DNA of 37,527 nucleotides from Nitrospira sp. (GTDB taxonomy: Bacteria; Nitrospirota; Nitrospiria; Nitrospirales; Nitrospiraceae). The position numbers were made by a program, and so were the translations under genes. The DNA is taken from NCBI GenBank assembly GCA_029865225.1, contig JAOUHJ010000027.1, positions 1-37,527 on the forward strand. Reading direction: 5' to 3'. Under the pieces are notes generated by a model, which was given only the letters and a program-made list of their open reading frames with translations, did not search any database and had not been told where the DNA came from. Positions 12,257 to 33,634 of this stretch are shown piece by piece (positions within the stretch are counted from its first letter, which is position 1; every line of letters starts with the position of its first letter).

Positions 12257-12472
12257 ACTGAATCTCCTTTATGGTAAAGGGTGAGATGCACATATGAATG
12301 GCATCATAACAGAGAAATACGTAAGTGTCTGTAGGCTGAATCGAGGCAGACTCCCGGTCACAGATGGAATGATTTATTTTAGGAGAAAGAGTATCCTTGT
12401 CCGTTACGGGACCTGGATGCTCCAGGGGCGCAATGCCATAGATTGTTTTGCTCGACACAAAGAAAGGGACTC

Positions 12473-14107
12473 ATGAGTGCAACGCCTGGTATCACGCGAT
12501 CACGTCAATTTCGCAAGATGCTCACGTCGGATCAGCTGGAATTCATCTGTGAAGCTCATAACGGCCTGAGCGCGAAAATCGTCCAGGAAGCAGGGTTCAA
12601 AGGCATTTGGGCCAGCGGTCTCTCTATTTCGGCTCAATTCGGGGTACGTGACAATAACGAAGCCAGCTGGACACAAGTTCTCGAAGATCTGGAGTTCATG
12701 TCCGATGCGACCACGATCCCGATTCTGCTCGACGGCGATACAGGGTACGGCAACTTCAATAATATGCAGCGGCTTGTCCGCAAACTGGAGCAGCGCCACA
12801 TCGCGGCCGTCTGCATCGAAGACAAACTCTTCCCCAAAACGAATAGCTTTATCAAAGGGGATGCCCAGCCGATGGCGGATATGCAGGAGTTTTGCGGCAA
12901 GATCAAGGCAGGCAAGGACGCTCAGATCGATCCGGACTTTTGCATTATTGCCAGGGTGGAAGCGTTTATCTGCGGCTGGGGGTTAGCCGAGGCGTTGCGG
13001 CGGGCCGAGGCGTATCGTCAGGCCGGCGCCGACGGCATTCTCATTCATAGTGCCCTGGCGGTGCCGGATGAAATTCTGGCCTTTAAACAGGAATGGGGAA
13101 CTCGATGTCCTGTGGTAATCGTTCCCACCAAATATTATGCCACGCCTACCGAAGTATTTCGGCAGCATGGAATTTCGATGGTCATTTGGGCCAATCACAT
13201 GTTGAGGGCGGCCGTAGCGGCCATGCAGAAGACAGCACGGACATTGAAAGAGCAAGAGCATCTTCTTTCCATAGAAGATAAGGTCGCGCCGGTGTCCGAA
13301 ATCTTCCGGCTGCAAAACGCTGCAGAACTTCAAGATGCCGAAGATCGCTATCTTCCACGAGGTGCTGAGAATACCAGTGCCATTGTGCTGGCGGCCTCTC
13401 GTGGTGAGGAACTACGAGAGTTGACTGAGCACCAACCCAAGACGATGGTGAAGATTCAAGGCGCGCCGATCCTCGCTCACATTGTGGACGGCTATAACGC
13501 CGTGGGCATTAAGGACATCACGGTCGTCCGTGGCTACAAGAAGGAGGCGGTGACGCTGCCTAACCTGACGTATCTCGATAACGACGAGTTTGCGGAAACC
13601 GGCGAGCTGTATTCCTTGGATAAAGCGTTGCGTGCACGGAAGGGCGGAGCCAAAGATTTGATCATTTCGTACGGTGATGTGCTGTTCAACAAGTATATCC
13701 CTCAGGCCTTGTGCCAGGAAAAAGAAGATTTTGTGATCTTCGTCGATAGCGATTGGCAGAACCAAAGCAGTTACGCTCGACTGGGGGGCTTTGCCGAATG
13801 CTCATTGCCGAACTCTAAGAAAGCCTTCAATGCAAAGATCTATCTCAAACGGTTAGGGGATACAGTTTCAAGGGAGCACATCCATGGTGTATGGATGGGA
13901 TTCCTGAAAGTGTCTCCGGCTGGAGGAGATCAGCTTCAGGCGATCCTTGGAATCATGATGGCCGATCCGGCTCACCGCAACGCAGGAATCCCACATCTGT
14001 TGCAGGAGCTCCTGAAACGTCAGCACGCCATTCGAGTCCTCTATACGGTTGGCCACTGGTTGGATATCAACAGTCTGGACGATGTGGTTCAAGCAGGAGT
14101 GTTTTGA
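12473..14107 (+). CDS. Phosphoenolpyruvate mutase fused to a C-terminal nucleotidyltransferase (PepM-PntC-like)
   Basis: The N-terminal ~290 residues are a PEP mutase, forming the C-P bond of phosphonopyruvate. They carry [12 protein letters not shown], the diagnostic [11 protein letters not shown] and the barrel strand IIARVEAFI. From about residue 300 there is a sugar/choline-phosphate-type nucleotidyltransferase: [11 protein letters not shown], then [18 protein letters not shown], the acidic ISYGDVLF and C-terminal [12 protein letters not shown]. Fusions of this order are known in PntC-type proteins that activate 2-aminoethylphosphonate as a CMP ester for phosphonolipid or phosphonoglycan assembly. 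Phosphonopyruvate decarboxylase and AEP transaminase, normally adjacent, are not in this window. The ATG at 12473 is chosen for its AAAGGGA site. The nucleotide loop reads LAASRG instead of the common LAAGxG. Confidence 0.85.
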
Positions 14108-29836: not shown

Positions 29837-30020
29837 GACTCCAGTCTGAGGACGTTGAGTAGGTTTTTGACTCGGTTGTCGGCGGCCGGTCATCATGTGG
29901 AGCGTTCGGTAGTGCATGGTGGGAGGCTGGAAAAAGGTTAACGCATTTACCGGCTGCTATCGGCCAATAGCGGTCGTCGTGTCGCTAGTTTCGAATGTCC
30001 GCTATCGGGAGACGGGGTGC

Positions 30021-30066
30021 GTTGTCAGCTTGGGAAGCTGATGTTCTACCATTGAACTACACCCGC
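30021..30066 (-). pseudogene. 3'-truncated tRNA-Gly (anticodon CCC)
   Basis: The minus strand begins with acceptor half GCGGGTG, then TA, a D-arm GTTC-AATGGTA-GAAC, and an anticodon arm TCAGC-TTCCCAA-GCTGA with anticodon CCC, agreeing closely with known tRNA-Gly(CCC). After the anticodon stem the sequence continues CAACGCACCCCGTCTCCCGA: there is no T-arm (GGTTCGA), no matching CACCCGC acceptor strand and no CCA. About the last 30 nt are therefore missing, replaced by repeat-like DNA. It cannot make a functional tRNA. The break point and the nearby repeats mark an insertion or deletion event. Confidence 0.75.
30030..30046 (+). repeat. 17-bp word shared with 33464-33480 (left copy, inside the tRNA relic)
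   Basis: TTGGGAAGCTGATGTTC here is the complement of the tRNA-Gly D-stem to anticodon-loop segment. An identical copy in the same orientation lies at 33464-33480, on the other side of the DUF1254 genes. Confidence 0.6.
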
Positions 30067-30315
30067 AAATCAGGGAGTTACGCCTCTCCTGGGCTCGGCT
30101 GAGCATAAAAGTGAGCGTACTCGGATTCTAAGCGATTCTGAGGTCCGGAGAAAAGAGATTGGATGAAGGAAGCCGAATTATCATCACGTACATCAGGCAT
30201 TATTTCAAAACCACTTCAGCGTCGAAGCCCCCGTCTAATCCTCGCGATGCTCAGTTCGCAAAACATCTGCATCGTCTTTCATTCCATTCTCGCGAATGAC
30301 TCTCCAAGCTCTATT

Positions 30316-30348
30316 CTGAACCGCCCCGACTTGCTCCGGGCGGTTCAG
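30316..30348. terminator. 11-bp-stem hairpin downstream of the DUF1254 genes
   Basis: CTGAACCGCCC (30316-30326) and GGGCGGTTCAG (30338-30348) pair perfectly around an 11-nt loop. It lies about 70 bp past the stop of the minus-strand DUF1254 gene, a suitable terminator place, but no U-run follows on that strand (AATAGAGCTT). It could equally be an insertion-element end or a repeat. Confidence 0.4.
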
Positions 30349-30415
30349 CATCGTCCCGATGGATGAATGCCCCACTATTTGACGTTCAACGAGGAAATTA
30401 TTTCGGAGGCGTTCC

Positions 30416-31576
30416 TTACTCCTTCTTGACCTTGGCAGGCCTCGGAATCGTCCACTCGCCACTCATAATCTCCGGCTCCGGAAGGTAGTAGCGTGCGGCC
30501 ACGTCGAACGGCCCGGCAGGAATCTCGAGGCAATTCTGGTCGCCGTCTTCGCACTTGACCTTGAAGCGGAAGGTGAAGGTGCCGTCCTCATTCTTGACGG
30601 CGGTCGTGTTGTTGATGTGGTAGCGGTTGTCCTCGTTGGGGTGGAGGCGACCGGTGGTGGAGTCATAGACCGTGATCGACCAGAAGGCGTTGACCGGAGG
30701 CGCCTCCGTCACCATCACGTATTCGCCCTCCGAGCCTTCAAGGGTCTCACCGGACGAGTCGGTAAACATCGACTCGTAGGCACTGTGAGAGGTTGCCGGT
30801 CCACCCCAGCCCACCTTGGTGCCGGCGGAGTGGTAGAGAAAGGGGACATCCTTGCCGGGTTCCTGGCCGGGCCCGACGATCATCTTGGAAAACGGCACGG
30901 ACCTCGCCGTCTCGTCCATGCGCTTGTTGGCTTCCTGCGCCACCTGCTCGTCGAAACCACTCAGGAGATCGACTGCGGGCATTTCGCGGATGGTCGGCCC
31001 TCCAATGGTGATGCCGTCGAAAACGGCCTGTGCTGCCGCCATGTCGGCAGCGTCATTCGGATCCTTCACTTCAATCCGCGTGACCACCGCGGACAGGAGC
31101 GACGGCACTGCAACAGCCTCACCCGTAATGTTCCCGGGTTTCTCGCCATGATAGAGCGTGTAACTGCCGGCCGGATTGATGATGTTGCGGTAATTCGCGT
31201 TGCGGTCATCCTGTAGCTGAAACGAGCTGAATCGCTCCTTCGAAGGCGAATCCGAGCGCAGCACGACCGGCCCATCCCCGAGGTAGACGAACGCCGTCTT
31301 GTAGAGGGTGTCGTTGTTGACCCGGACGATCGAGTCCTCACCGGCCTTGAGCAGCTCCCGTGACGCCTGGCCCCATTGATTCAGCTTTCCGGCATCTCCC
31401 CCCGTGAGCCGCATGGCGTAGTCAAAAGTCTCCTGGTAGGGAAACTCTTGAATGTAGTCTTCTACCTGTTTCTCCAAGTCATCGGTTGAAGTGGACTGTT
31501 CAGGGGAAAAGGCGGCGATCATGATGCCGCACGTTGTCATCGCGATGGCTCGATAAAGGTTCTTCGTTGTGAGCAT
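30416..31576 (-). CDS. DUF1254/DUF1214 domain protein (short form)
   Basis: An exported protein of 386 aa of unknown function. A hydrophobic N-terminal segment (about residues 10-25, MTTCGIMIAAF) acts as signal. DUF1254 follows (LEKQVEDYIQEFPYQETFDY; NNDTLYKTAFVYLGDGPVVL), then the C-terminal DUF1214 (APPVNAFWSITVYDSTTGRL, FDVAARYYLPEPEIMSGEWT). ATG 31576 is chosen because GGAGG lies six bases upstream; earlier in-frame ATGs overlap that site. It is the downstream member of a same-strand pair with the longer paralogue. Composition looks more GC-rich than the flanking genes, which with the tRNA scar suggests acquisition by transfer. DUF1254 proteins are widespread but lack an established biochemical role. 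Confidence 0.85.
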   Translation of the reverse strand: MLTTKNLYRAIAMTTCGIMIAAFSPEQSTSTDDLEKQVEDYIQEFPYQETFDYAMRLTGGDAGKLNQWGQASRELLKAGEDSIVRVNNDTLYKTAFVYLGDGPVVLRSDSPSKERFSSFQLQDDRNANYRNIINPAGSYTLYHGEKPGNITGEAVAVPSLLSAVVTRIEVKDPNDAADMAAAQAVFDGITIGGPTIREMPAVDLLSGFDEQVAQEANKRMDETARSVPFSKMIVGPGQEPGKDVPFLYHSAGTKVGWGGPATSHSAYESMFTDSSGETLEGSEGEYVMVTEAPPVNAFWSITVYDSTTGRLHPNEDNRYHINNTTAVKNEDGTFTFRFKVKCEDGDQNCLEIPAGPFDVAARYYLPEPEIMSGEWTIPRPAKVKKE

Positions 31577-31629
31577 GTTCATCCTCCGAATTCTCACTTA
31601 CGGTACTGTCGTTATCACCCTATGATCTG

Positions 31630-31716
31630 CTACTTTGCTGCCACCGGTTTCACCTCGGGGACCGTCCAGGTGCCATCGAGAATTTCCTTTCGCGGCTGGT
31701 AAAAAAAACGCACCAT
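31630..31716 (-). pseudogene. C-terminal stub of a third DUF1214 protein
   Basis: Between the two DUF1254 genes the minus strand encodes MVRFFYQPRKEILDGTWTVP followed by EVKPVAAK and TAG. It parallels the end of the short paralogue (ARYYLPEPEIMSGEWTIPRP...KVKKE), so it is the last ~27 codons of another DUF1214 gene. It is in frame with the end of the upstream gene, separated by that gene's TGA stop and one codon. No ribosome site precedes the ATG. A deletion between tandem paralogues is the simplest origin. Confidence 0.6.
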
Positions 31717-31719
31717 TTC

Positions 31720-33174
31720 TCAATCCACGCGCACCACACCGGGCATGTTGTAGCTCGCGTCGATCAGGGGGGTGGCGGCGCCGTAGAAACGAGCGGTGAA
31801 GCGGAAGCCCTCCTTTGGTGCGGGCAGCCAGTTCTGGCGCTGCTTCGGGTCCTTCGGCTCATCGTGCTGGACATAGATCACCAGCTTGTTGTCCTCGGTG
31901 TGGAGCTGGCCGCGCTCGAGCATGAAGCTGTTGAGCGAATAGCGGTCGATCGGGTTGTCGTAGAAATAGCCTTCGGAATCGTAGAGCGGCATTTCCCAGA
32001 ACTCGGTGACCGGGGGCATGTTTTTCAGGTCGAAGGTGATCGTGTAGCGGTGCTCGCCCGAGAGCGGCCGGCCATTGGAATCGTCCCAACAGTTTGCGGA
32101 CGTATGCGACCGGGAGGGAACGGGGGCGAGAACAGCCTGCAACCCGGCCCATGCCCGCCATTGCCAGTTGGTGTCCTTGTAGCCGAGGTCGTTGTCGAAC
32201 TTCCAGCCGTTTTGGCCCTCGGTGAAGTTCGCGGCCATCCCCTCCAGCACTTCCTTCTTCCCCTCCTCGATCCCCGCCTCCACCGCAGCGGCGATCTCGG
32301 GGGTCAATCCGGCGGGATCGAAGGGCGTGCCGGCCTTGAGCCCAAGGCGCTCGAAACGCGCAAAGGCGGTGACTTCACGATGGCTGTCGGTCTGTTTGGT
32401 GAAACTGGGATCGTTCAGCACCAGGCTGACCCAGCGCAGAAAGTCCACGCCGGTGAGTTTGCCCGCTTCCTGAACATTCTCCATGCCGGGATAGGTGGGA
32501 TAGTCGGCCTTGGTCAGCGGCACATCCTCCGCCCGCACCTCCTTGCGTCCGGCAGCAATCCACTGGCTGAGCGACATGGCCGTGATGCGGTCCTGGATGG
32601 CGTTGACGATCCGGACCTCTTCCTCCGTAACGTCGGGGAGAGCGACGCGTCCCAGCACCCCGGCAAAGTCCGACTGGGACTGCACGATGTCGGCCCCGAC
32701 GAAGCCGTCGGGCAGCTTGCCGCTCCAGTTCGGGCCGATCAGCAAGCGCCGGACGGGGCCGGGCGCATTGAACTGGCTACCGATCATGTGCCACCAGCGC
32801 GAGTAGTTGTCGTACAGGTGGACGCTCCAATAATGATCCTTGATTTCGGGGACGATGATGACCGCGGGTTCCTTTGACAGATCAAACATGCCCACGCCAT
32901 AGAGCGTGGTGGCATTGGGTGTGGTGGCGACGCGCGGCAAGGCCTTCATGGGTTCGCGAAACCAACTCAGGCGGTTGATGCCCGCAGCGCGCGGGTTCAG
33001 TTCGTTCTGCGCGAAGTTGAAGCGCAGGTGGTAGATGGCCACCGGGTGCATGCCCCACAGGAATGCTTCCTTGGCGATGTCCTTTGCCTCGGCGGGAGTG
33101 GCTACTTCGCTCGGCCCCTGGCAGCCCAAGAACAGAAGCACTAGGGGGAGCAGAAGGATGGGAGAGCTCTTCAT
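31720..33174 (-). CDS. DUF1254/DUF1214 lipoprotein (long form)
   Basis: A 484-aa predicted lipoprotein: the N-terminus SSPILLLPLVLLFLGC carries a lipobox (L-F-L-G-C) with cysteine at about residue 18. The DUF1254 part follows (EAFLWGMHPVAIYHLRFNF, VATTPNATTLYGVGMFDLSK, IIVPEIKDHYWSVHLYDNY), then a helical middle and the DUF1214 end (MPPVTEFWEMPLYDSEGYFY, RGQLHTEDNKLVIYVQHDEP, GFRFTARFYGAATPLIDASY). An excellent AAGGAGGTG site precedes the ATG. It and the short paralogue downstream form a same-strand pair with the stub of a third between. Exact function is unknown; the family is often found next to transport or stress genes. Confidence 0.88.
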   Translation of the reverse strand: MKSSPILLLPLVLLFLGCQGPSEVATPAEAKDIAKEAFLWGMHPVAIYHLRFNFAQNELNPRAAGINRLSWFREPMKALPRVATTPNATTLYGVGMFDLSKEPAVIIVPEIKDHYWSVHLYDNYSRWWHMIGSQFNAPGPVRRLLIGPNWSGKLPDGFVGADIVQSQSDFAGVLGRVALPDVTEEEVRIVNAIQDRITAMSLSQWIAAGRKEVRAEDVPLTKADYPTYPGMENVQEAGKLTGVDFLRWVSLVLNDPSFTKQTDSHREVTAFARFERLGLKAGTPFDPAGLTPEIAAAVEAGIEEGKKEVLEGMAANFTEGQNGWKFDNDLGYKDTNWQWRAWAGLQAVLAPVPSRSHTSANCWDDSNGRPLSGEHRYTITFDLKNMPPVTEFWEMPLYDSEGYFYDNPIDRYSLNSFMLERGQLHTEDNKLVIYVQHDEPKDPKQRQNWLPAPKEGFRFTARFYGAATPLIDASYNMPGVVRVD

Positions 33175-33463
33175 GATCGCACCTCCTTCAAACGTAGCAC
33201 GCTATGCCGATCCGGAGACCGGAGCCGTCAGGGGTGCTACCTACTGATAAGTATATCCCGAAACCCGGGTCAAAAGATATCCGAAGGCGCCAACCCAGCC
33301 GAAACCGCAAGCTCGGCTGCGACATGAGGCTACTTCTGAGCATACTCAGAAAGCTCAGTGGCCTCAGTTGGGTACTCTTGGGGCGATCTAACTCGTTGAA
33401 ACCGGTGGTCACAGGACCACGGAAATCAAGCGGCTATACGAGTGCCCAACTCAGCGACTCCGA

Positions 33464-33480
33464 TTGGGAAGCTGATGTTC
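33464..33480 (+). repeat. 17-bp word shared with the tRNA-Gly relic (right copy)
   Basis: TTGGGAAGCTGATGTTC is identical to 30030-30046 in the same orientation; neither flank extends the match. It corresponds to the D-stem to anticodon-loop of tRNA-Gly(CCC) on the minus strand, but no other tRNA sequence surrounds it here. Confidence 0.6.
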
Positions 33481-33495
33481 GAAGCTTTCAATAAG

Positions 33496-33535
33496 AAAGC
33501 GGACGTTCGATCTCTTTTTGTTGAATGTCCCCTTT
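33496..33535. repeat. Hairpin of the GGACATTC/GAATGTCC repeat type
   Basis: AAAGCGGACGTTC (33496-33508) pairs with GAATGTCCCCTTT (33523-33535), with one mismatch and one G-T wobble, around a 14-nt loop. The GAATGTCC core recurs at 29993-30000. Such GAATGTCCGC/GCGGACATTC words look like a dispersed intergenic repeat family; that is recalled, not searched. Confidence 0.45.
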
Positions 33536-33634
33536 GGGTCGGATGCAGCCATTCGGAAACGCCCGGTTGCGTTGTGGTGACAAGAACAGTAGCTTGAAGG
33601 AAAGCCACTGTTGTCCCCCAGAGGTGCGCCCCCA

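Follow-up and report, generated by a model that had tools for sequence, protein, structure and literature searches.

The minus-strand interval 30038-33471 of the window (the whole stretch of DNA analysed, 37,527 nt) is one complete mobile gene cassette of 3,434 bp that has no recombinase gene of its own. Two 17-bp words mark both of its crossover sites. Probably, it is a complete, non-autonomous integrative cassette from a family living mainly in Woeseiaceae-type gammaproteobacteria (the family of genome G079, to which a MAG labelled Woeseiaceae, G080, locus L144, also belongs). Judging from the architecture of its ends, we consider it quite likely that the cassette was recombined at the anticodon loop of a tRNA-Gly gene by a tyrosine integrase supplied in trans.

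The cassette, counted with one core copy, has the end order and orientation of 15 other cassettes delimited in G079's family. Its left end (33320..33471, minus strand) begins with the core CTTCCCAA, runs on as TCGGAGTCGCTGAGTTGG... and is conserved over ~150 nt; a profile built free of the window scored it at 154 bits (E = 4.7e-46 in 400 kb). The right end (30154-30030, minus strand), scored by a window-free profile at 129.6 bits (E = 1.6e-38), combines a promoter-like block with a tRNA-Gly(CCC) 5′ half that stops in the anticodon loop. The tRNA half spans 30020..30066 (minus strand), of which the cassette portion stops at 30030, the remainder being a tRNA-resembling flank. On the same strand, the right copy of the core (30030..30037) is the junction point in all right ends and the left copy (33464..33471) in nearly all left ends. 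The second 17-bp copy adjoins a family left end, so that left end, cargo and right end follow one another in the window in the order and orientation of the G079 cassettes, with the conserved left end, the promoter block and tRNA-Gly 5′ half, and the CTTCCCAA cores that define the family. The block at 30067..30154 (minus strand) reads TTAGAA ... TATGCT by eye and is conserved across right ends; a consensus promoter scan did not flag it, and its conservation and position make it a candidate promoter. Neither end in the window is a complete tRNA by ARAGORN, the combination of a tRNA fragment at one end and a tRNA at the other being seen in arrays. A structured RNA at the left end was rejected, given a weak consensus fold with little covariation.

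The cargo consists of two DUF1254/DUF1214 genes, as a preliminary description made from the sequence had stated, both on the minus strand: one of 484 aa (31720..33174) and one of 393 aa (30416..31597). Proteins with these domains are of unknown function. The stub of a third gene in that description turned out to be the C terminus of the first: beyond an in-frame TGA at 31720-31722, ~30 coding-like codons (to ~31630; window 31629-31722) read like the end of the 484-aa gene, which may be a pseudogene, as the in-frame stop could impair it. The higher GC content noted earlier was borne out (0.589 for the island versus 0.546 for positions 1-28300) and is clearest at third codon positions, with a GC3 of 0.77 and 0.83 for the two genes versus 0.59-0.68 for their neighbours. 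No integrase domain was detected in the interval, again as described, and recombinase domains and integrases were absent from every cassette scanned, in the window and in the family. Family cassettes are ~1 to 10 kb long and varied in cargo; cassettes from different genomes share TerC, sulfatase and LysR cargo, the pattern that mobile units would be expected to give. The same cargo as in the window was not found in the family (≤30% identity), a point against our preferred explanation. A cargo donor within the Woeseiaceae-type family was rejected at best identities of 26-30%, and the best plasmid match to the cargo was 40%, in haloarchaea.

Of the 107 genomes searched in G079's family, 21 contained the left-end word, compared with 0 for the reversed control; among 368 other genomes sampled from the same class, 0 did. 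The left end had no match in plasmid and phage collections and its exact words were missing from viral contigs, and a phage or plasmid origin was rejected on these grounds. Within the family, left ends often stand in head-to-tail arrays, the last copy usually being an intact tRNA-Gly(CCC). G079 has ~8 copies of the half-tRNA, clustered and in one orientation; of the copies that lack a tRNA 3′ half behind them, most run into the conserved end TCGGAGTCGCTGAGTTGG... instead. Among the core sites read, right end meets left end at 15, which lie inside arrays. At 11, the left end is instead preceded by a tRNA half whose upstream DNA is unrelated; these are candidate array heads, and several are degenerate. 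Array tails account for 8, where a right end runs into a tRNA 3′ half (that at L213:7710 is degenerate). At 3 (the window, L282 and L294), no tRNA half precedes the left end. In most arrays whose tail was read, ARAGORN predicted that the last copy is a complete tRNA-Gly(CCC). In a compact case (G122:C54, L290), a 1.0-kb cassette lies between a tRNA half with its own upstream region and a tRNA gene reconstituted with the cassette's promoter block. At three further sites (L280:9072, L283:4876 and L293:1551), the right end is succeeded by another kind of left end, T[GT]CTCGGAGCC..., pointing to a second subfamily of cassettes within the same arrays. Another junction type, CTTC[CT]CAATC[AG]GAGTCGCAGGTT, with T-arm-like sequence behind it, was seen at L281:10176, L279:655 and L290:3495.

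A fixed 8-bp junction in the palindromic anticodon stem, long conserved ends and words shared between the two ends (TATGCTCAG, and TACTCTCACTT of 11 nt) would fit a tyrosine integrase with arm-type sites; the 11-nt sharing was matched by 6 of 5,000 base-shuffled controls. We propose that the cassette circularises and that a tyrosine integrase acting in trans would recombine its CTTCCCAA with an anticodon loop, either that of a tRNA-Gly(CCC) gene or that of the tRNA at an array end. Insertion would detach the old promoter and 5′ half from the tRNA gene and put the cassette's own in their place, so that the split tRNA would stay functional. Cassettes would occasionally land in repeat-like sites holding the core, and the window cassette would have sat in such a site and been imported together with its repeat flanks.

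Two other routes to these structures are each unlikely. Homologous recombination or duplication between repeated tRNA-Gly regions, with no site-specific recombinase involved, could draw on ends that are long, similar direct repeats, and no integrase was found nearby. However, the junctions all fall at one 8-bp sequence, three kinds of upstream DNA precede the left ends, including sites without a tRNA half, and neighbouring cassettes differ in cargo, which together leave this explanation improbable. We give similarly little credence to movement by the host's XerC/XerD, as proposed for pdif modules. In its favour, the Phage_integrase proteins of several array-bearing genomes number just two and form an XerC/XerD-like pair; however, the array-bearing donor genomes are fragmented MAGs that may be incomplete. 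By eye, moreover, the CTTCCCAA core and its arms do not look like a dif site, which counts against XerC/XerD. Against our preferred explanation stands that no integrase was found beside the ends or in the cassettes scanned. An autonomous parent element was rejected, as the ends were absent around the additional integrases from five array-bearing genomes.

In the host genome itself (G000), a conventional island (C51:14435-28135; L017, L057) seems to be bounded by the host's own tRNA-Gly(CCC): a 48-nt part of the tRNA from the anticodon loop to the 3′ end (GCTTCCCAAGCTAG...) is repeated at a distance of ~13.7 kb, and directly downstream of the tRNA gene lies a Phage_integrase gene. This island has the AGCTTCCCAAGCT core too, so its integrase is a candidate helper. 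Many host tRNA genes have a Phage_integrase match within ~1 kb (contigs C7, C51, C55, C67, C70, C75, C80, C96, C102, C138, C143, C144 and C145), and the host genome looks rich in tRNA islands.

By sequence comparison, the tRNA half in the window is foreign to its host. An intact tRNA-Gly(CCC) of the host's own lies on another contig; its sequence clearly differs from that of the fragment, which was found in 0 of 78 other genomes of the window's genus (≤3 mismatches over 37 nt). The fragment's first 42 nt exactly match real tRNA-Gly genes in many actinobacteria and gammaproteobacteria, and one of these matches, in a Gammaproteobacteria MAG (G079, locus L136), extends to 150 bp of similarity to the window, including the same break after the anticodon stem. 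The XerD-like proteins of the array-bearing family share 85-94% identity with one another and ~43% with the host's, which scores 233 bits against E. coli XerD, compared with 333 bits for the family's; the host therefore lies outside the array-bearing family and probably outside Gammaproteobacteria. Cross-phylum transfer of the cassette is likely on these comparisons, and the presence of its ends in gammaproteobacterial arrays suggests that the system has spread to an unrelated host. A contig chimera or misbinning was rejected, the DNA on both sides being genus-like.

These observations bear on the break in the tRNA gene, which the preliminary description had read as a scar. The break itself is real: tRNA-Gly alignments end at 30018-30025, ARAGORN finds no complete gene, and a full-length tRNA match by cmscan in the fragment region is only weak (33.8 bits). 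Entry of an island into the host's own tRNA-Gly would leave a fragment that stops in the anticodon loop and a direct repeat on both sides of the module, as seen here; however, with a fragment foreign to the genus that bears the element's own conserved upstream block, and a different host tRNA-Gly(CCC) intact elsewhere, it is very unlikely. The earlier reading holds in that the module is mobile and has recombination sites within a tRNA-Gly gene at its boundaries; the host scar gives way to a half-tRNA and promoter block that form the module's own foreign end.

The 17-mer TTGGGAAGCTGATGTTC was confirmed at 30030-30046 and 33464-33480, and a genome-wide count found these to be the sole exact copies in the 4.12-Mb genome. 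The next-best sites (14, each with 3 mismatches) compare with 10 for a reversed-pattern control, and none of the window shuffles yielded two matches. For all its modest length, the repeat has next to no chance of being accidental, a doubt raised earlier that is removed by the two sole genome copies and the independent end profiles (E<1e-37). The unusual position of the repeat on the 5′ side of the tRNA, from D-arm to anticodon loop, is likewise genuine, because in such elements the junction lies in the anticodon loop and the 5′ half belongs to the element.

Homology to the genus stops at 29860-29884 and starts again at 33545. Between these limits, foreign flanks adjoin the insertion site: that at 33472..33544 contains CGAACGTCCGCTTTCT (minus strand) and GAATGTCC and is of a type common to L282 and L294, and that at 29890..30029 contains GATAGCGGACATTCG (minus strand) and is 89% identical to L212 and 82% to L282 over ~55 nt. 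The repeat-type words AAAGCGGACA and AAAGCAGACA have 22 occurrences in 838 kb of family DNA and, outside the window, 0 in 363 kb from the host and its genus. The GAATGTCC words are present at 29993 and 33523, as described. They do not bound the module, as had been supposed, and are part of repeat-like flanks around a non-tRNA insertion site that also occur beside Woeseiaceae-family cassettes; they are probably Woeseiaceae-like repeats that arrived together with the cassette. We infer that repeat flanks and cassette entered the genome as one piece of ~3.66 kb (~29.9-33.54 kb). The flanks may instead be decayed tRNA relics, given the weak full-length cmscan score. No empty site with these flanks was found for the window cassette, which also weighs against our preferred explanation. 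In the closest relative found (L236, G035:C190:7728-8075), only remnants of a porin gene are present and everything from there to ~35425 is missing, so the region is variable beyond the cassette.

The nearest recombinase-less cassettes are those of integron arrays and pdif modules, which use other sites. Integron arrays, especially CALINs, likewise string together small cargo units without an integrase, which are believed to be mobilised in trans (PMC11389934). Here, by contrast, the anticodon loop of a tRNA serves as the site, the ends are long and conserved, and the junction CTTCCCAA lacks the GTT triplet of integron crossovers. Acinetobacter pdif modules share the lack of a recombinase and the short flanking sites, but these are XerC/XerD sites on plasmids and not tRNA halves (PMC7399989). 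The tRNA-targeted islands surveyed by Islander resemble our cassettes in the anticodon-loop crossover, in restoring the split tRNA, in having a 5′ fragment class and in forming tandems (PMC4383910). In that survey, a displaced 5′ tRNA fragment marked a rare class (159 of 3,919 islands), only 4 tandems had three or more members, and candidates without an integrase or shorter than 2 kb were rejected (PMC4383910). In contrast, the present cassettes are 1-10 kb, stand in arrays of several members and lack an internal integrase, both in the window and in the other cassettes scanned. Archaeal pTN3-like elements also use the 5′ half of a tRNA gene as attachment site and give the tRNA a new promoter, but this is the promoter of an integrase that they carry themselves (PMC8371274). 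Additive flexible islands and tycheposons stack genes with tRNA pieces repeated at their boundaries; there, however, either 3′ ends of tRNAs form the repeats or there is a recombinase (PMC10872708).

We encountered no account of such an arrangement in the open-access literature searched. On balance, we lean towards an undescribed, non-integron cassette system. In it, an in-trans integrase would array small cargo-only units at one tRNA gene, each unit bringing a tRNA-Gly promoter and 5′ half; the tRNA would gain a new promoter with every insertion, and cassettes would now and then spread to unrelated bacteria. If so, this split-tRNA system would give bacteria a further way of gathering and exchanging metabolic genes. 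Island searches that require an internal integrase and a minimum size would miss such units. The testable question that it raises is which recombinase recognises CTTCCCAA with these ends.

Elsewhere in the window, a PEP mutase domain and a nucleotidyltransferase domain are fused in a single reading frame at 12443-14107.
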